NCBI GenBank assembly: GCA_014055495.1
Contig: WIAG01000035.1
Coordinates: 1 to 38,826, forward strand
Direction: 5' to 3'
DNA: 38,826 bases
Origin: Nitrospira sp. CR1.2
Lineage (GTDB): Bacteria > Nitrospirota > Nitrospiria > Nitrospirales > Nitrospiraceae
Below the pieces are notes generated by a model. It saw only the letters and a program-made list of their open reading frames with translations. It had not been told where the DNA came from and did no database searches. Positions 11,817 to 38,826 of this stretch are shown piece after piece (position 1 is the first letter of the stretch; each line of letters begins with the position of its first letter). Position numbers and translations under genes: made by a program.

Positions 11817-11894
<78 letters not shown>

Positions 11895-11962: not shown

Positions 11963-12172
11963 TCAGACAGCGTTTTTACGGCTGCGGGGTTTCTGAACAG
12001 GCTCGAATATCCCCAGCTCTCGCTCCACGTCCGGGATGGTCTTTTCAAGGGCATGCTTAATGAGGTAACTCTCAGTCTTCTCGCGATCGCGCGCCTTGAT
12101 CCGGCGCAAGCGGGCTTTCATTTCCCGCGGAATGTTCGCAAACGCTTGCGTGTTGCGTTCCAAGTTGATCAT
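11963..12172 (-). CDS. Small putative DNA-binding regulator (ribbon-helix-helix-like)
   Basis: A 69-residue basic protein, MINLERNTQAFANIPREMKAR..., with a short strand followed by two predicted helices (KARLRRIKARDREKTESYLIKHALEKT), which fits an Arc/CopG-like ribbon-helix-helix. The start at 12172 has a very strong AAAGGAGGTGAG upstream. A longer in-frame start at 12232 would run through an operator-like palindrome. It is the only minus-strand gene in this end of the prophage and faces away from the replication module, the position of a lysogeny repressor or antitoxin. The fold assignment is tentative. Confidence 0.65.
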   Translation of the reverse strand: MINLERNTQAFANIPREMKARLRRIKARDREKTESYLIKHALEKTIPDVERELGIFEPVQKPRSRKNAV

Positions 12173-12206
12173 GCCTCTCACCTCCTTTCGTGATCGTGTC
12201 ATGCGT

Positions 12207-12236
12207 GCCATGCATTCGCCATGCGTTTGCATGGCG
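12207..12236. promoter_or_regulatory. Operator cluster O1: three GCCATGC half-sites spaced 11 bp
   Basis: GCCATGC occurs at 12207-12213 and 12218-12224, and its inverse GCATGGC at 12229-12235. The last two make a perfect palindrome, CGCCATGC-GTTT-GCATGGCG. Start-to-start spacing is 11 bp each time, about one helical turn, as used by cooperatively binding ribbon-helix-helix dimers. It lies between the minus-strand promoter and the 12172 start. Confidence 0.75.
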
Positions 12237-12247
12237 TTACACTAGCA

Positions 12248-12276
12248 AGATTACCGTACAGTACCAGTGCTGTCAA
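12248..12276 (-). promoter_or_regulatory. Putative leftward promoter of the 11963-12172 gene
   Basis: On the minus strand a perfect TTGACA (12276-12271), a 17-bp spacer and TAATCT (12253-12248). The O1 operator cluster begins 11 bp downstream, so bound repressor would block the start. Confidence 0.5.
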
Positions 12277-12338
12277 GCACTTTTTGATGTCAATAAGTAC
12301 GTACATTGCCTAGGGCCGAAATAGTGGTATTTTTTTCA

Positions 12339-12368
12339 TTGACAGGATTATAGTGCTAGTACTATATT
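12339..12368 (+). promoter_or_regulatory. Putative rightward promoter with CTAGTAC element in the spacer
   Basis: TTGACA (12339-12344), 18-bp spacer, TATATT (12363-12368), followed six bases later by operator O2. The spacer holds CTAGTAC (12356-12362) within AGTGCTAGTACTAT, the first of the recurring prophage palindromes. This promoter would drive the replication module. Confidence 0.6.
12356..12362. repeat. CTAGTAC element, copy 1 (promoter spacer)
   Basis: First copy of a recurring element. Others: 15771-15777, 27346-27352, 27690-27696, 32368-32374, 36502-36508 and 38315-38321; close variants are CTAGCACTAGCACTAGG (12564-12580) and CACTAGTGCTCGG (27495-27507). Longer matches share CTAGTACTAG followed by GTGCTCG or GTCCTCG. 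Almost all lie in short gaps or in the first codons of a gene. Confidence 0.75.
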
Positions 12369-12373
12369 GCGAA

Positions 12374-12393
12374 CGCCATGCAGATGCATGGCA
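12374..12393. promoter_or_regulatory. Operator O2: GCCATGC palindrome
   Basis: CGCCATGC-AGAT-GCATGGCA. The two 7-bp half-sites (12375, 12386) are perfect inverse copies with the same 11-bp spacing as in O1. It lies just after the rightward -10 and 16 bp before the next gene start, so it would shut the replication module down when bound. Confidence 0.75.
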
Positions 12394-12408
12394 CTAACGG
12401 AGGGCAAC

Positions 12409-12567
12409 ATGAAGAAACCGATTCCAGCCATGAAGAACTGCACGATCCGGCTCCCGGAAGAGCAGATCAAGTACATCAAGAAGCGTGCCAAGGACCAGCG
12501 GCATTACAAGATGTCGGAGGTGGTTCGGCGCCTCGTCGCATCCGATATGGCAGGTCCAGCAAACTAG
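12409..12567 (+). CDS. Ribbon-helix-helix (CopG/Arc-like) transcriptional regulator
   Basis: A 52-residue protein with the typical layout: strand NCTIRLPEEQ, helix IKYIKKRAKDQ, then the second helix MSEVVRRLVASDM. TIRLPEEQ is the hallmark of CopG-type DNA-contacting strands. ATG at 12409 follows GGAGGG. It lies directly downstream of the rightward promoter and O2, so it may regulate itself and, through the same half-sites, the divergent gene. A second small basic regulator candidate is transcribed the other way; which one binds GCCATGC cannot be told. Confidence 0.8.
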   Translation: MKKPIPAMKNCTIRLPEEQIKYIKKRAKDQRHYKMSEVVRRLVASDMAGPAN

Positions 12568-12587
12568 CACTAGCACTAGGAGGCGTG

Positions 12588-12755
12588 ATGCCGTACCGTA
12601 TTGTCTTCCTCTCTGTAATCGGCTTCTGGGCACTCTGGACTATCTATGAAGTGGCCTGCGAAACCTGGAAGGGGATTGCGGCCAAGCGCCGACAGGAACG
12701 GCTGTGGATTGAGCGGCTCTGGATACAGGGCGTCGTCCGGAAGGTGTCGCGATGA
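12588..12755 (+). CDS. Small membrane protein, 55 aa
   Basis: MPYRIVFLSVIGFWALWTIYEVACETW gives one N-terminal membrane helix; the C-terminal half is basic (AKRRQERLWIERLW). AGGAGG lies 4 bp before the ATG, and the stop overlaps the helicase start (ATGA), so translation is coupled. The SD overlaps the CTAGCACTAGCACTAGG repeat. Function unknown. Confidence 0.7.
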   Translation: MPYRIVFLSVIGFWALWTIYEVACETWKGIAAKRRQERLWIERLWIQGVVRKVSR

Positions 12756-14443: not shown

Positions 14444-14586
14444 GGCTCGGGGATTATGTGCTGTGCATCAACCTCGGGCTGAATGCCTTGGCCTGTAGCG
14501 CCTACGCCTACCAGGGGCACTACAAGCAAGCGGTCTATTGGATTGGTGTGGGGATCATTAACGGGAGCTTACTCACATGGCGTTGA
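14440..14586 (+). CDS. Small membrane protein, 48 aa
   Basis: Starts at GTG 14440, overlapping the helicase stop (GTGA), with AAAGGAG upstream. The product is MRLGDYVLCINLGLNALACS..., with one or two hydrophobic helices (about 5-20 and 28-43). Its end overlaps the methyltransferase start by 10 bp. No function recognised. Confidence 0.6.
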   Translation: MRLGDYVLCINLGLNALACSAYAYQGHYKQAVYWIGVGIINGSLLTWR

Positions 14587-15224
14587 AGCCCTACTACGAC
14601 GATGGAAACGGGATCGTGATTTACCACGGGGATTGCCGGGAGATTTTGCCGCACCTGGAGGCTGAAATCATTATTTCAGATCCACCCTACGGGATCTCCT
14701 ACCGACACGGTAAATGCAACGGATCTCAGGCTACCAAGTTTTACGACGAAACATCGAAAGTGCATGGGGACGATCAACCGTTTGATCCGTCATTCCTTCT
14801 TGGCTCATCGGCTCTTGTTCTGTGGGGAGCCAACAACTACGCCCGACATCTTCCGCATTCTGGGGGATGGTTAGTTTGGGATAAGCGGATCGGTACGGTT
14901 GTCAACGACCATTCTGACTGCGAGCTGGCATGGACGAATCTTATGAACACGGCCAGGGTCTATTACCACATGTGGGACGGCTTTAGGCGTGGACCGCAAA
15001 CCGGCATGGAGCGCGTTCATCCAACCGAAAAGCCTGTCAATCTCATGAAGTGGTGCATCGGCTTTTCCCCTGAAGCAGGTACCATCCTCGACCCGTTCAT
15101 GGGCTCTGGCACCACGCTCAGAGCAGCCAAGGATCTAGGCCGCAAGGCTATCGGCATCGAGATTGAAGAGAAGTATTGCGAGATCGCTGCCAAACGTCTA
15201 GCGCAGGAAGTGTTAGCACTATGA
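14577..15224 (+). CDS. Orphan DNA methyltransferase (N6-adenine or N4-cytosine type)
   Basis: A 215-residue enzyme that should transfer a methyl group from S-adenosylmethionine to an exocyclic amino group. The catalytic motif DPPYG follows the N-terminal region (about 34-38), and the AdoMet-binding FMGSGTT is near residue 180, giving the beta-class order. TEKPVNLMKWCI is the usual helix before the AdoMet motif. DPPY is typical of adenine methyltransferases, but N4-cytosine cannot be excluded. No restriction gene is adjacent, so it may protect phage DNA from host restriction or control gene expression. The target sequence is unknown. Confidence 0.92.
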   Translation: MALKPYYDDGNGIVIYHGDCREILPHLEAEIIISDPPYGISYRHGKCNGSQATKFYDETSKVHGDDQPFDPSFLLGSSALVLWGANNYARHLPHSGGWLVWDKRIGTVVNDHSDCELAWTNLMNTARVYYHMWDGFRRGPQTGMERVHPTEKPVNLMKWCIGFSPEAGTILDPFMGSGTTLRAAKDLGRKAIGIEIEEKYCEIAAKRLAQEVLAL

Positions 15225-15754: not shown

Positions 15755-15770
15755 GCGTTGGACATGTGAT

Positions 15771-27098: not shown

Positions 27099-27281
27099 TT
27101 AGGCTCCTGCGGCGTAGCTCATAATTGGGTGCGCTGCCGTCGTGGAGTAAATAACTCGGCCATTCTCGGCCACGTATCCGGCGGATGCGTTGGCGGCTGC
27201 TATGGCTCGGTGCAGGTAGCTGTAGGCCGAGACGGTCCCGTCCGGTCGGTGCACTCGATAGCGTTTCGTGATGCGGTACAT
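27099..27281 (-). CDS. Hypothetical protein, 60 aa
   Basis: MYRITKRYRVHRPDGTVSAY, a basic small beta-alpha protein; AANASAGYVAENGRVIY follows. CCAAGGAGG lies upstream. It is the first gene of the minus-strand island, next to the control region. Confidence 0.6.
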   Translation of the reverse strand: MYRITKRYRVHRPDGTVSAYSYLHRAIAAANASAGYVAENGRVIYSTTAAHPIMSYAAGA

Positions 27282-27345
27282 ATTGCCTCCTTGGTTCGTG
27301 TTCGTCGCGTTCATGCTGGGCTATAAAGCAAGACTGGTGCCAGTG

Positions 27346-27352
27346 CTAGTAC
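27346..27352. repeat. CTAGTAC element, copy 3
   Basis: Within CAGTGCTAGTACTCGG, nearly the same as copy 1 (AGTGCTAGTACT). It lies 65 bp upstream of the first minus-strand gene. Confidence 0.6.
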
Positions 27353-27646
27353 TCGGCGATTCATTGGGGTTTCGTGCGGATTGGCGCGGGGTGCGAGATT
27401 GGGGAGTGTGGAGAAATGCGCCAGGGAAAGACCGGGGTAATATGGTATATGGTAAGTGCGCGTAATTATTCAATTGTGGTGTGTGGCATTTGGCCACTAG
27501 TGCTCGGACTGGTACGAGGCAAATAGGGGCATCGAATGAAGGGGCCACGGTCGGGAATTCGGATGCTCCGTTTTTTTCTGCCCGTCTGGCTAGTTAGGAG
27601 GAGGAGAGAGAGAATTAGGTCCCCTATATAAAGGGGATATTCGGGC

Positions 27647-27682: not shown

Positions 27683-28216
27683 ATGCCAGCTAGTACTAGT
27701 GCTCGTCCCCATAGTCCACTCACTAAGGCTCGCATCAGTCAAGCCCTTCGGAAACCACGGAAAGCCCGGACCCTCAATCGTGATGCGGCTCTGGCCATGC
27801 GTCAAGCTGGGCATACCATGCCGGAAATCGCGGCAAAGCTCGGTGTGACAACCAGTGCTGTCTATAAGTTCCTCGATAAAGCTACCCCTGAGCATCAGGC
27901 CCTTGAGGCCTTCAAGCAGAATCGGGCGAACGTGTTCGCTGATCTGCAAGCGAAGGCGATTGATCTACAGCGCAAGGTGATTGATTCGTTCTATGAGAAC
28001 GGCGTTCTGGTGGCACTTACACCGCAGCAAAAGACCGGACTCATGATGTCGCTCAATGCGGTTAGTGGCACCATCTACGACAAGGAACGCCTTGAACTGG
28101 GGAAAAGCACCCAGAATGTCGGCCTGATTGCCCGGATGATGGGCGATTCCCTCGGCAGAATCGGTAAAGCCACTAGTAATGGTGGCGATCCTACGCCAGA
28201 GACCCCAGTTGAGTAG
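27683..28216 (+). CDS. Small terminase subunit-like HTH protein
   Basis: 177 residues. A helix-turn-helix (ALAMRQAGHTMPEIAAKLGV, then TTSAVYKFLDK) lies near residues 35-65, followed by long helices (ANVFADLQAKAIDLQRKV, LTPQQKTGLMMSLNAVSG) and the TerS-like end KERLELGKSTQNVGLI. This fits a phage DNA-recognition subunit of terminase, which binds pac or cos and feeds DNA to TerL. It is separated from TerL by nine small genes, unlike most phages. The first codons overlap CTAGTAC copy 4. A regulator cannot be excluded. Confidence 0.7.
   Translation: MPASTSARPHSPLTKARISQALRKPRKARTLNRDAALAMRQAGHTMPEIAAKLGVTTSAVYKFLDKATPEHQALEAFKQNRANVFADLQAKAIDLQRKVIDSFYENGVLVALTPQQKTGLMMSLNAVSGTIYDKERLELGKSTQNVGLIARMMGDSLGRIGKATSNGGDPTPETPVE
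27690..27699. repeat. CTAGTACTAG palindrome, copy 4
   Basis: Lies 5 bp after the ATG at 27683, inside codons 3-6, and is followed by GTGCTCG. Its neighbour in the control region (27495) shares the GTGCTCG extension. Confidence 0.6.
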
Positions 28217-30299: not shown

Positions 30300-30547
30300 G
30301 TAGTCCCTTGCAGCCAGTGGACAAGTTCGGCAAGACACAGTTCAGGCCCTACCGGCTGGAGATTCCGGTGCCGGCCGAGGCGGTGGGGTTCGCGTTCACG
30401 GTGTTCGTGATGAAGAACGGCGCGGTGCAGGTGTACGGGCCGCTCCAGGATGTGGACAGCTGCGTCAAGTGCCTGGAGTTGGGGATTGATCGCGTGAAGC
30501 AGTTCGCGGCCGAGCGCGCGGCGAAAGAGGAATCGAAAACCGCATGA
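30296..30547 (+). CDS. Hypothetical phage protein, 83 aa
   Basis: MSSPLQPVDKFGKTQFRPYR, then a strand pair (VGFAFTVFVMKNGAVQVYGP) and a C-terminal helix. ATGA-coupled to TerL. A chaperone-like role is possible but not supported. Confidence 0.6.
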   Translation: MSSPLQPVDKFGKTQFRPYRLEIPVPAEAVGFAFTVFVMKNGAVQVYGPLQDVDSCVKCLELGIDRVKQFAAERAAKEESKTA

Positions 30548-32187
30548 CCGCTCCCCGTATCTCCGAACGCGAAGTTGATAGCTGGATCTATGAACCGATC
30601 CGGTGGGCGCGGAAATTCGGGGGCGATCGGTTTGACCCCTGGTCGGGGCAAGAGGAGTTTTGGATTGAGTACGGCAAGCTCTTGAACGCGAAGATTCTTC
30701 GCTGGAAGGGGCTGCCGATGACCGATGAGCAGAAGAAGTACGCGCGCAAGCTCGGGATCAGCATCATGGCGGGGCAAGGCGTGGGGAAGGGTGCCACGAT
30801 CTCGCTCTGCGGGCTGCACTATATGTTCGTGCTCCAGTCGGTGCGGCCGAAGATCGTCTGCACGGCGCCGGCCGGTCCCCAGCTCCACTCCTCACTGTGG
30901 CCAGAGTACGGCGAATGGTTGCAGCGGAATCCCCTACTGGCGGAGATTTTCGAGAAGAACGCGCATCGGATCTTTTTGAAGGAGGATACCGGGCGTGGGA
31001 CGGTATCGAGGATTGAGCCGCGGACCGTGCAACCGAACGCTTCGCCGGAAGATCAGAAGGTCGTCCTGGCCGGTGTCCACGCGCTCGGGGTGATGTATCA
31101 GGTCGATGAAGGCTCTGGGGTGCCGGAAGCGGTGTTCGAGCCGCTGGAAGGCGGACTGACGGATCCGCTCTCGATGATCATTCTGCTGTTCAATCCGACG
31201 AAGCGCGACGGGTTCGCGATGGAGACGCATCGCCGGAACCGTGACCAGTGGATTCCGCTCCAGTGGGACGGCGAAGTGCTCGCGGCTGAGAAGCGGAAGC
31301 CGGAGAATTACGGGCGGTTTTTGTGGTTCAACGAGGAAGTGCAGGAGTCGCATGCCAAGAAGTACGGGAAGGACTCGGACTTCTATCGGGTGCGCGTGAA
31401 GGGCCTCCCGCCGAACCAGTCCGGGGATATGCTCATCTCGTTCGAGTCGGCGATCGCGGCGCAAACCCGGGTGATCGAGACGCTGGATTCCGACCCGCTG
31501 GTGATTGCCGCGGACATTGGCGGACCGAACCGCGGCGCGGACCCGTCGATTATCATTCCGATGCGTGGTCCCCAGGTGCTGGATCTCCATGAGCATAACG
31601 AGAAGGACACGACCCAGCTGTCGGATCGGATAGCCGGGCACCTGCGGGACCACTTGGCGAGCGTGGGGAGTGATGTGCAGTACGCGATCGGCGTCGATGT
31701 GATCGGAATTGGGCGCGGGGTGCGGGATCAGCTCGTCAATGTGCAGAAGTTGCGGGTGTTTTCGATCGATGTCTCGCAAAAGCCGTTGAATGAGGGCCGG
31801 TATCATCGCATGCGCGACCAAATGTACTGGGAACTGCGGGAAGGGTTCATGGATGCGCTGGAAATTAGCCTCCGGATCATGAAAAAGGGTATGCCGGTGA
31901 CGGATGATGAGTTGATCGGGCAGCTCACGTCGATTCGATGGGCTGAAGTCGACGGCAAGATCAAAATTCAAGGGAAAGGGCTCTCGTCGGGGATTCCGCA
32001 TGTGCCACCGTTGGCAAATTCTCCAGACAAGGCGGACGCATTGGCGATTGCCTGGTGGTTGTATAAGCACTGTACGTCGAAGATGCCGCCCGGGCAACGC
32101 CGGCAGCGTCGGCAGCGGAACGCGAATACGGATGCGGCGCTGTTGGGGTTCCGGTCGATGGCGGCGAGAATGGGGAGAGGTCGATGA
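30544..32187 (+). CDS. Terminase large subunit
   Basis: A 547-residue packaging motor and nuclease. ATPase domain: Walker A AGQGVGKG (76-83), Walker B MYQVDEG (D188, E189), and the coupling motif near IILLFNPTK. The RNase H-like nuclease has D324 in IAADIGG with NRGADPS, D385 in GVDVIGIGRG, and the late Asp in SPDKADALAIAWW. It pumps phage DNA into the procapsid through the portal and makes the packaging cuts. Coupled to the gene before it by ATGA. Confidence 0.93.
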   Translation: MTAPRISEREVDSWIYEPIRWARKFGGDRFDPWSGQEEFWIEYGKLLNAKILRWKGLPMTDEQKKYARKLGISIMAGQGVGKGATISLCGLHYMFVLQSVRPKIVCTAPAGPQLHSSLWPEYGEWLQRNPLLAEIFEKNAHRIFLKEDTGRGTVSRIEPRTVQPNASPEDQKVVLAGVHALGVMYQVDEGSGVPEAVFEPLEGGLTDPLSMIILLFNPTKRDGFAMETHRRNRDQWIPLQWDGEVLAAEKRKPENYGRFLWFNEEVQESHAKKYGKDSDFYRVRVKGLPPNQSGDMLISFESAIAAQTRVIETLDSDPLVIAADIGGPNRGADPSIIIPMRGPQVLDLHEHNEKDTTQLSDRIAGHLRDHLASVGSDVQYAIGVDVIGIGRGVRDQLVNVQKLRVFSIDVSQKPLNEGRYHRMRDQMYWELREGFMDALEISLRIMKKGMPVTDDELIGQLTSIRWAEVDGKIKIQGKGLSSGIPHVPPLANSPDKADALAIAWWLYKHCTSKMPPGQRRQRRQRNANTDAALLGFRSMAARMGRGR

Positions 32188-32360: not shown

Positions 32361-32450
32361 TATCGCACTAGTACTAGTGAAACCACTAGGACGTTGACCG
32401 GTGTCAGTCCCCCGCCGTTTCGGCGACCCGCTGACAGGATTGTTGATCCT
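32338..32450 (+). promoter_or_regulatory. Portal gene leader: palindrome, hairpins and possible promoter
   Basis: TTGACA (32338-32343) and an extended -10 TGATATCGC (32358-32366) give a possible promoter. The palindrome CACTAGTACTAGTG (32366-32379) would overlap its start. Then TGTCAG (32402-32407)/CTGACA (32431-32436) enclose CGCCG-TTT-CGGCG (32413-32425), and AGGAT-TGTTG-ATCCT (32436-32450) lies right before the portal ATG. There is no good ribosome site, so structure may control portal translation. Confidence 0.45.
32366..32379. repeat. CACTAGTACTAGTG palindrome, copy 5
   Basis: A perfect 14-bp palindrome in the 92-bp gap before the portal gene, followed by a partial CCACTAGG. Confidence 0.7.
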
Positions 32451-32452
32451 GT

Positions 32453-34627
32453 ATGGCGACGGCCGCACCCACGAAAAAATCACGCTACGAAGACAAGCTG
32501 GCGTATGCCTCCGAGCAGGATAAGCTCGACTTTCTCGTCGACTCCGTCCGGAACGAGGATGAAGACTGTATCCGGTTGCGCCTGCACCGCATGGTCTACG
32601 AAGCGGTCAATCATCCGCTCAGGACCATGTACGAGCTCGAAAGCTCGCTGAATTATCAGTACACCGAAAACGAATTCTATACTGAAGCGGAGCTGGCCCA
32701 GTTTCTTGAGCGGGGCCAACCGCCGACGCGACGCAATGAACTGGCGCCGATTCTTGAGCGGATCGCCGGGCAGTTTATTCAAACGCGGCAGGTCTGCAGT
32801 TTCCTCGGGCGCAATACGCCGGCCGACGACGGAGTCGGCGCGGTGCTCCAAGACACGCAGCGGTGGATTGATCAGACCAACCTCGCTGAGTTCGAGGAAC
32901 AAGACCAGACCTGGGACGGGCTGGTCGGTGGGGTGGGCTGGATCAAGGCCTGGATCGAGCGCAACGAGCTCGGGCAGCCCTGCGAGAAGTTCAAGAGCCG
33001 TAATCCCTTCACGATTTTCAAGGATCCCTACTCTCAGCGGTATGACCCGAACGAGGATGCGAAGTACATCTGCGAAGGCGCATGGATGGACGTCGAGGAC
33101 GCCATTGAGCGCTGGCCGGATAAGGAGGACGAACTCCGGGATTTGACCGTGTCGAACGGGCTGGAGTTTTTCGGTGGCTCAGCGGTCGACCCGTCGCTGT
33201 TGAATGACACCTACATGCAGAACTTGCCGACTGGCGGGCCGGTGCTCTCCGGAAACGGGCAGCGTAGACGCGTGCGGCCGTTCGAGGTCTGGTACAAGCG
33301 CAAGGTTAAGCTCTACTACATTTTCAAGGATGACGGCGTGCTCGCCGTGCCGGTGCCCGTCGACAACGACGAAGCGAAGTCGATCCTGAAGGACCTGAAA
33401 GGCTCCGACGGGATCTACGCCGAGCCGGTGTGGAAAGAACGGATGTATGTCGGCGTCATTCTCGGGAATATCCTTATCCATCATGACGTCTCACCGCACG
33501 AAACGAACCGGTTCCCTTATGTGCCGTTCTATTCGGGGCTGAAGAAAAACGGTGCGCCACTCGCGCTCGCGAGCCGGCTGGTCCCAATCGTCGAATCCAT
33601 CAATAAGCGGGAAAGTAAAGCACTGGCGCTGCTGACGAACCGGCAGATCGTCGCGGAAGAAAATTCCTTCGACGATGCCGAATTGTTGCAGACCGAGCAC
33701 GCGAAGCCGGACGGGTTCCTCGAGGTCAAGGAAGGCGCCGTCTCGGGTAACCGGATTCTGTTCCGCGACAACTTGGATATGGGCCAGGCCCAGCTCGCGC
33801 TGCTCCAGGAAGACAAGGACGCCATTCGCCGGGTGTCGGGCCAGGGCAATGAGTCGATGGGGATGCCGTCGGAGGTCCGGAGCGGGCTCGGGATCGCGAA
33901 AAAGCAGGCCATGGGCAACCTGATTGTGCTGCCGATGCAGAACAACTTGCGCCGGTCGCGGTACATGAAGGCGCGGCTCTCCTACGAATACACGAAGCAG
34001 TGGCTGACCGAAGAGATGGCGTTTCAGATCACCGATGATCCGAACGCGCCGCGTACCGTTCAGATTACGAAGAGCCATATCAAGGCCCTCAAGGAACGGC
34101 TCTACGATCTCGTCATTACCGAGACGAAAGACTTCACGGTCCTGCGTGAGCAACAGGCGGAAATGCTGCTCCAGGCGATCCCGGCGCTGGCGCCGTTGGG
34201 CCCGGCCTACATGAAGCTCGGCATTCAGTTGACCGAGCTCCGGGACAAAGAAGGCCTGATGAAGATGATCGATGAGCAAGCGCAGCCGCAACCGGAGCGG
34301 CCGAAGATGACGATTGCCATGGACTGGAAGGAATTCACGCCGGAGATGAAGGCGTACATCGCCATGACGGCGTTTCAGAGCCAGGAATTGGCCCAGGTGT
34401 TTATTCAACAGAGCGAGGACCCGGCCTTCGTGCAGAAGATCGAAGCGGAAATGGCGATCGCGCAAGTCAAGGAAGGTACGCGAAGCCAGGTGGAGCGCGG
34501 GAAGATCGACTTCCAGGCGTTACAGACCGCGGTGCAGGGCCGGATGGAGATGCAAAAGATTCGTGACAAAGGCAAGCCCCAAGGCGGGGCGCCGGAACAA
34601 TCTGAACCTGAAGGAGAAGCTGCATGA
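32453..34627 (+). CDS. P22-type portal protein
   Basis: 724 residues, about the size of the P22 gp1 portal. It forms the dodecameric ring at the procapsid vertex through which DNA passes. Characteristic marks are RNPFTIFKDPYSQRYDPNED in the clip/wing region, FPYVPFYSGLKKNG, the long helical stem (SINKRESKALALLTNRQIVA) and the acidic/helical C-terminus rich in Gln and Glu. The C-terminal barrel-like helix (AEMAIAQVKEGTRSQVE) fits this class. It lies after TerL and before the scaffold in standard order. Its ATG has no clear ribosome site (see leader). The end overlaps the scaffold start. Confidence 0.88.
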   Translation: MATAAPTKKSRYEDKLAYASEQDKLDFLVDSVRNEDEDCIRLRLHRMVYEAVNHPLRTMYELESSLNYQYTENEFYTEAELAQFLERGQPPTRRNELAPILERIAGQFIQTRQVCSFLGRNTPADDGVGAVLQDTQRWIDQTNLAEFEEQDQTWDGLVGGVGWIKAWIERNELGQPCEKFKSRNPFTIFKDPYSQRYDPNEDAKYICEGAWMDVEDAIERWPDKEDELRDLTVSNGLEFFGGSAVDPSLLNDTYMQNLPTGGPVLSGNGQRRRVRPFEVWYKRKVKLYYIFKDDGVLAVPVPVDNDEAKSILKDLKGSDGIYAEPVWKERMYVGVILGNILIHHDVSPHETNRFPYVPFYSGLKKNGAPLALASRLVPIVESINKRESKALALLTNRQIVAEENSFDDAELLQTEHAKPDGFLEVKEGAVSGNRILFRDNLDMGQAQLALLQEDKDAIRRVSGQGNESMGMPSEVRSGLGIAKKQAMGNLIVLPMQNNLRRSRYMKARLSYEYTKQWLTEEMAFQITDDPNAPRTVQITKSHIKALKERLYDLVITETKDFTVLREQQAEMLLQAIPALAPLGPAYMKLGIQLTELRDKEGLMKMIDEQAQPQPERPKMTIAMDWKEFTPEMKAYIAMTAFQSQELAQVFIQQSEDPAFVQKIEAEMAIAQVKEGTRSQVERGKIDFQALQTAVQGRMEMQKIRDKGKPQGGAPEQSEPEGEAA

Positions 34628-36501: not shown

Positions 36502-36511
36502 CTAGTACTAG
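36502..36511. repeat. CTAGTACTAG palindrome, copy 6
   Basis: In the 50-bp gap between major capsid and cement genes, followed by GGACCAGTAC, which echoes the CAGTAC/GTACTG near copy 1. Confidence 0.65.
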
Positions 36512-36537
36512 GACCAGTACAACGAAAGGACTCGACC

Positions 36538-38304: not shown

Positions 38305-38826
38305 GCCGATGATACTAGTACTAGTCCTCGTGCTGTGTGCATGGGGAGGGCCTGTCTATGCCGATGGGGTTCTGACGCCTGCCGCTGGCGGGTTCGCTCG
38401 CATGAAATCACAGTTCTTCACCACGACCGGGGCCAACTCTTTTACCTGCCCTGCGTCAGGGGTGGTCTTTGCCACGCTGATAGGCGGGGGCGGTGGTGGC
38501 GGTGGTGGGCTCAACAATGCCTCATTCGGTGGAGGTGGTGGAGGATCGTCAGGGCAAGTTAATAGTCGGTACACGGTCCCCTGTACGCCCGGCGCAACCT
38601 TGACCGTCACTGTCGGCGCGGGGGGAAGCGGTGGGACAGGTGGTGCAAGCCCTTCAGCTGGCTCATCTGGCTGGGACACCTCGATCAGCGGGGGGCTCAT
38701 CAGCACCGTGTCTGCCCGCAACGGGGTGGGAGGCTCGGCAGGTATCGCGGCGGGTGGGCCTGGTGGTGGGGGAGGCACAAAACGGATCGTGTCCGCTCCA
38801 GCTGGTGCGACGATCTCGAATTATTC
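38291..38826 (+). CDS. Glycine-rich exported protein, partial (cut by window edge)
   Basis: The frame starts at ATG 38291 or 38309 and is open to the window end. MRCTKPMILVLVLVLCAWGG then PVYADG is a signal peptide with AxA-type cleavage (VYA). The mature part has long glycine runs (LIGGGGGGGGG, FGGGGGGSSG) and beta-type segments (VFATLIGG, TLTVTVGAGG). This composition fits the glycine-rich domains of tail fibre or adhesin-like proteins. It overlaps the previous stop by 14 bp. CTAGTACTAG copy 7 lies within the signal-peptide codons. Confidence 0.68.
   Translation, partial: MRCTKPMILVLVLVLCAWGGPVYADGVLTPAAGGFARMKSQFFTTTGANSFTCPASGVVFATLIGGGGGGGGGLNNASFGGGGGGSSGQVNSRYTVPCTPGATLTVTVGAGGSGGTGGASPSAGSSGWDTSISGGLISTVSARNGVGGSAGIAAGGPGGGGGTKRIVSAPAGATISNY
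38314..38325. repeat. ACTAGTACTAGT palindrome, copy 7
   Basis: A perfect 12-bp palindrome in the first codons of the glycine-rich gene (codons for ILVLV), followed by CCTCG as copy 4 is followed by GCTCG. Confidence 0.65.

Follow-up and report, generated by a model that had tools for sequence, protein, structure and literature searches.

In phage lambda, CI and Cro work from shared operators at divergent promoters, and a small DNA-binding protein is encoded first in the rightward operon. The immI region of phage P22, with Arc and Mnt, has divergent promoters controlled by small phage regulators of the ribbon-helix-helix (RHH) type, with half-sites lying about one helical turn apart. Dispersed repressor sites are found in mycobacteriophage L5 and other Cluster A phages, which carry operators and stoperators, the latter proposed to block elongation; each L5 site is an asymmetric 13-bp sequence whose orientation follows that of transcription (PMC9283540). 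In SPbeta, the repeated element SPBRE, with its repressor MrpR, a recombinase-fold protein, marks the regulon (PMC10516654).

Here we compare these systems with a locus in the window, a stretch of 38,826 nucleotides from Nitrospira sp. CR1.2, and in G175 (IMG/VR contig IMGVR_UViG_3300033067_000977, 48,565 bp), the sole near-complete relative compared. Like lambda, the locus has divergent promoters, shared operators, here termed class A, and a small DNA-binding-like first rightward gene, but leftward it encodes RHH1 or an integrase and a further motif, class B, is dispersed over the phage; no HTH CI/Cro was found in the window. Small, putatively RHH-type regulators, divergent promoters and a similar half-site spacing connect the locus with P22 immI, from which the window differs in the weak match of its RHH2 protein to Arc, in its unrelated operator sequence and in the presence of a second operator class. 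Class B resembles the L5/Cluster A sites in its many copies per phage genome, in its placement at promoters and in short gaps or gene starts, and in its restriction to the phage: there are nine clusters in the prophage vs none in the adjoining host DNA, and 13 in G175. Unlike L5 stoperators, the class B sites are near-palindromic arrays of hexamers, for which a strand-free motif model beats an orientation-fixed one (484.7 vs 467.7), and their orientation relative to transcription is not fixed. Because of this lack of orientation, and because the class B reader is only putative, we do not file class B with the L5-type stoperators. SPBRE, too, is a short, prophage-dispersed motif, recognised in the sequence before its repressor was known, but the motif differs from class B, and no MrpR-like recombinase-fold protein was seen besides the G175 integrase.

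This region forms the left end of a prophage and adjoins a tRNA-Pro(CGG) gene called by ARAGORN (11817-11893, + strand). The last 48 bases of this gene, 11846-11893, are the likely attL core and are repeated at the very end of the host contig C74, with host genes beyond that include one sigma factor (assigned by eye), which is the pattern expected of attR. The 48-base repeat is thus consistent with integration of the prophage at tRNA-Pro. Rightward of the promoter PR lie the genes for RHH2, a membrane-like 55-aa ORF (12588-12755, + strand) that is conserved in G175, an SNF2-type helicase, a methylase, a primase-like protein and a UvrD-like helicase. Structural genes, among them that for a GP7-type capsid protein, follow these early and replication genes, and contig C126 stops within the late region. 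Neither a clear continuation of the prophage nor a close integrase was found on the other contigs of the assembly. G175 is collinear with the window and circularly permuted, and the proteins common to both are mostly 54-94% identical. At one locus the methylase has been swapped, an N6/N4-type enzyme in the window (14577-15224) standing against one that is C5-type by eye in G175 (L003 6990-7820).

The earlier note had described oppositely directed TTGACA promoters with a half-site group just downstream of each, and the coordinates read from the sequence agree with it. PL, on the minus strand (12248-12276), consists of TTGACA at 12276-12271, a 17-bp spacer and TAATCT at 12253-12248; PR, on the plus strand (12339-12368), consists of TTGACA at 12339-12344, an 18-bp spacer and TATATT at 12363-12368. 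A consensus promoter scan returns PR only, since the -10 hexamer of PL is weak, and the hexamers of PL, like those of PR, are kept in G175. The hexamer positions, with the start points inferred from them, place the class A sites at roughly +1 to +18 relative to PR and +6 to +35 relative to PL. Between the promoters, window positions 12297-12315 (TACGTACATTGCCTAGGGC) are near-identical in G175 despite differing surroundings.

All five perfect GCCATGC half-sites are exactly where the earlier note had placed them, in two groups with 11-bp spacing. The array O1 (12207-12235) has three, at 12207(+), 12218(+) and 12229(-), and O2 (12375-12392) has two in inverted orientation, at 12375(+) and 12386(-). 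They make up three exact pairs at 11-bp spacing, with no others in the window, and across the 4.06-Mb genome the 18-bp palindrome GCCATGCNNNNGCATGGC has just two occurrences, 12218-12235 and 12375-12392. An 11-bp step of this kind suits RHH dimers, as in the Arc family. Comparison with a related phage contig for covariation, of the kind proposed with the original description, supports the reading of the sites as operator-like: both promoters, both site groups and RHH2 are retained in G175, and the site layout is kept while the half-sites change together. There O2 reads GCCTTGC/GCATTGC and O1 reads GCCTTGC/GCCCTGC followed by a degenerate third half-site. Position 4 is altered in 4/4 core half-sites, in both groups, whereas the remaining 24 positions of these half-sites show one change (p about 2e-4 for such a concentration). 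Since the alterations fall at one position in both groups, they point to a single shared binding protein rather than to decay, and that protein is most likely RHH2. Being placed close to the start sites, class A would fit an autoregulator.

Two small proteins that had been described as RHH-like do flank the sites, but their assignment to this family consists of sub-threshold profile matches. RHH1 (69 aa; 11963-12172, - strand), whose gene would be driven by the predicted PL, is CopG/RelB-like by weak matches below the cut-off (phrog_7325, E=0.003; RelB-like, E=0.009). RHH2 (52 aa; 12409-12567, + strand), encoded first in the rightward operon, weakly resembles Arc/CopG proteins, with scores all under the curated cut-offs (Pfam RHH_1, E=0.024; Arc, E=0.12; the Arc-like phrog_2639, E=0.0055); its G175 homologue matches Arc at an E of 0.06, also sub-threshold. 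An AlphaFold2 model of RHH2 from a two-sequence input gave one long helix with a pTM of 0.39 and no PDB match. RHH2 is 81% identical between the window and G175; in its presumed DNA-contact ribbon, C11F is the sole difference, and N10, T12 and R14 are conserved in both phages. Searches for further relatives with RHH1, RHH2 and the neighbouring early proteins led to G175 alone among viral contigs, and to none among genome contigs or among phages; searches with the early proteins within the phylum returned distant RHH-type matches only, all in settings that have no class B sites. G175 has a 106-aa ORF of its own (L019 4137-4457, - strand), RHH-like by eye and adjoining three class B sites, which has no profile match and is not present in the window.

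While the description of the locus as a phage control region with operator-like sites has held up, it had missed the second motif, class B (consensus CTAGYACTAGTACTAG), which occupies both promoter spacers, the rhh2 stop codon and six further places in the prophage. B1 (12258-12273; matrix score 15.6) lies in the PL spacer and is conserved in G175, B2 (12350-12365; 21.9) lies in the PR spacer and overlaps the -10, and this spacer placement at both promoters is conserved in G175. B3 (12564-12579; 24.5) contains the stop codon of rhh2 and lies in a run of 23 consecutive bases identical between the window and G175. The other elements are found upstream of the leftward ORF 27099-27314 (27340-27355; 20.0); at 27497-27512, the weakest of the nine (12.4); in codons 3-8 of the gene for a 177-aa HTH protein (27690-27705 in 27683-28216; 24.3); in the gap that separates ORF 30544-32187 from ORF 32453-34627 (32362-32377; 19.7); just past the capsid gene (36502-36517; 20.6); and in the first codons of ORF 38291 (38315-38330; 20.0). 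Only the last of these has no syntenic counterpart, so that 8/9 clusters are syntenic between the two phages; in G175, the opening codons of a different signal-peptide-like ORF hold an element. For one more site of G175, a decayed counterpart is seen near window position 15766, and in a third fragment, L029, the site past the capsid gene is identical to that of the window. Upstream of the 177-aa HTH gene and of a TTGACA there is also a near-palindrome, CCCCTATATAAAGGGG (27621-27636), and similar CCCCTATATA(A/G)AGG elements occupy the same place in G175 and L069.

The abundance of class B in the phage is far above expectation. Relaxed matches number 33 in the window vs 3.7 expected, with 0/100 shuffles coming close, and in a plain count of 9-mers across the phage part, CTAGTACTA ranks highest. 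Scanned with a matrix trained on the G175 sites, the phage portion of the window yields the nine clusters (shuffles: mean 0.5, maximum 2) and the 11.9 kb of adjoining host DNA yields none; the reciprocal scan gives the 13 clusters in G175. Zero-mismatch matches number four genome-wide, all within the prophage. In 78 other relatives chosen by their capsid genes, there were 11 clusters in a total of 0.93 Mb, a sparse background; of 174 other genomes of the family, two carry the exact 14-mer, once each, in settings that are not comparable. Host LexA/SOS boxes were considered and rejected: the genome has no PF01726 match, and the control search was positive in 10/14 known genomes. The sparse background in relatives, the lack of a host LexA and the rarity of the exact 14-mer together indicate that class B is a motif of the lineage of G175 and the window phage. 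As promoters the dispersed sites were likewise rejected, since by eye they have no -10. Pattern scans for the spacer motifs of PR and PL met mostly apparently unrelated coding sequence, with two exceptions. In an unrelated GC-rich phage contig (L124 8300-8336), two class B 14-mers, 23 bp apart, surround a promoter, and the second gene behind this promoter is RHH-like by eye, without Pfam support. In the other (L139 1842-1855), TAGTACTAGTACTA lies inside the promoter spacer of a Chloroflexi gene that is PadR-type by eye, so the 14-mer can arise independently.

We tentatively favour a reading, which we regard as plausible, in which the locus serves a temperate tailed phage as its early control region, with RHH2 acting on class A and another phage regulator on class B. 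PL and PR would be divergent sigma70-type promoters, each with class B in its spacer and class A at its start, and the class A arrays would cover the start site and the first transcribed bases. RHH2, whose gene opens the rightward replication operon, would be an early autorepressor placed as Cro is in lambda: its dimers most likely bind class A cooperatively, at a distance of one helical turn, and would throttle both promoters. We infer this repression, and the assignment of proteins to sites, from sequence comparison, with moderate confidence for the reading of class A by RHH2 and low to moderate confidence for the reading of class B by a phage regulator distinct from it. This putative class B regulator, most likely phage-encoded, would exclude RNA polymerase from PL and PR when bound to their spacers. 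At gene starts, the dispersed class B sites may act in a stoperator-like manner to silence the prophage, where they could block elongation or mark the regulon; their presence at gene starts across the prophage suggests a genome-wide off-switch rather than a simple two-protein switch.

For class A, two other explanations were weighed. The earlier note had proposed a lysogeny switch made of RHH proteins, and under such a model RHH1 and RHH2 would compete at these sites in the manner of CI and Cro; both proteins do flank the sites and have weak RHH-type profile matches. G175, however, is without RHH1, and its PL faces a leftward tyrosine integrase gene instead, while its class A sites are retained and still under pattern constraint. 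RHH1 is therefore not a necessary partner of the sites, and the conserved core of the locus does not consist of an RHH pair standing in for CI/Cro; we consider a switch made of two RHH proteins quite improbable. Alternatively, the inverted repeats could be hairpins in the 5' leaders, serving mRNA stability or translation, and not operators. Both leaders fold better than shuffled sequences (z -2.6 and -3.8) and some of the G175 changes preserve pairing, but hairpins would not require the third, same-spaced half-site of O1 or identical 7-mers in 5/5 places, and the O2 stem of G175 contains a C-U mismatch, which leaves this explanation very unlikely.

The identity of the class B reader admits two further possibilities. 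RHH2 could itself read class B as the master repressor, with B3 insulating rhh2 so that a lysogen makes RHH2 and not the downstream replication genes, and with class A read otherwise or secondarily. B3, which spans the stop codon of rhh2, is unchanged between the window and G175, N10, T12 and R14 are conserved between the phages together with the class B motif, and the L124 promoter combines two class B sites with its RHH-like second gene. Against this, the co-changing class A sites would be left without a reader, the L124 protein is without Pfam support and the Chloroflexi PadR-type gene has the same 14-mer without an RHH protein; we judge this possibility unlikely, and rather more so its specific form, in which the 52-residue RHH2 reads the dispersed hexamer arrays as stoperators and B3 insulates its cistron from the lytic genes. 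Class B could also consist not of roadblocks but of sites at which late or delayed genes are activated or antiterminated, read for instance by the 177-aa HTH protein. Many of the sites lie at gene starts, and the HTH protein is common to both phages and has a site within its own first codons. The element fills the spacers of PL and PR, however, which is a repressing position; L069, with a 40% HTH homologue, has one background-level match in 21 kb; and the HTH protein may be a small terminase. We regard this account as improbable.

With the conserved parts of the locus now identified, its interpretation as a two-RHH-protein switch is corrected. The preferred scheme, RHH2 on class A and a different phage regulator on class B, leaves a short list of candidate readers and is therefore directly testable. 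Dispersed, possibly transcription-stopping operators are well described in mycobacteriophages, and the class B sites would be a further case, of unrelated sequence. The promoters would also carry a two-layer code, with one operator class in the spacer and another over the first transcribed bases.
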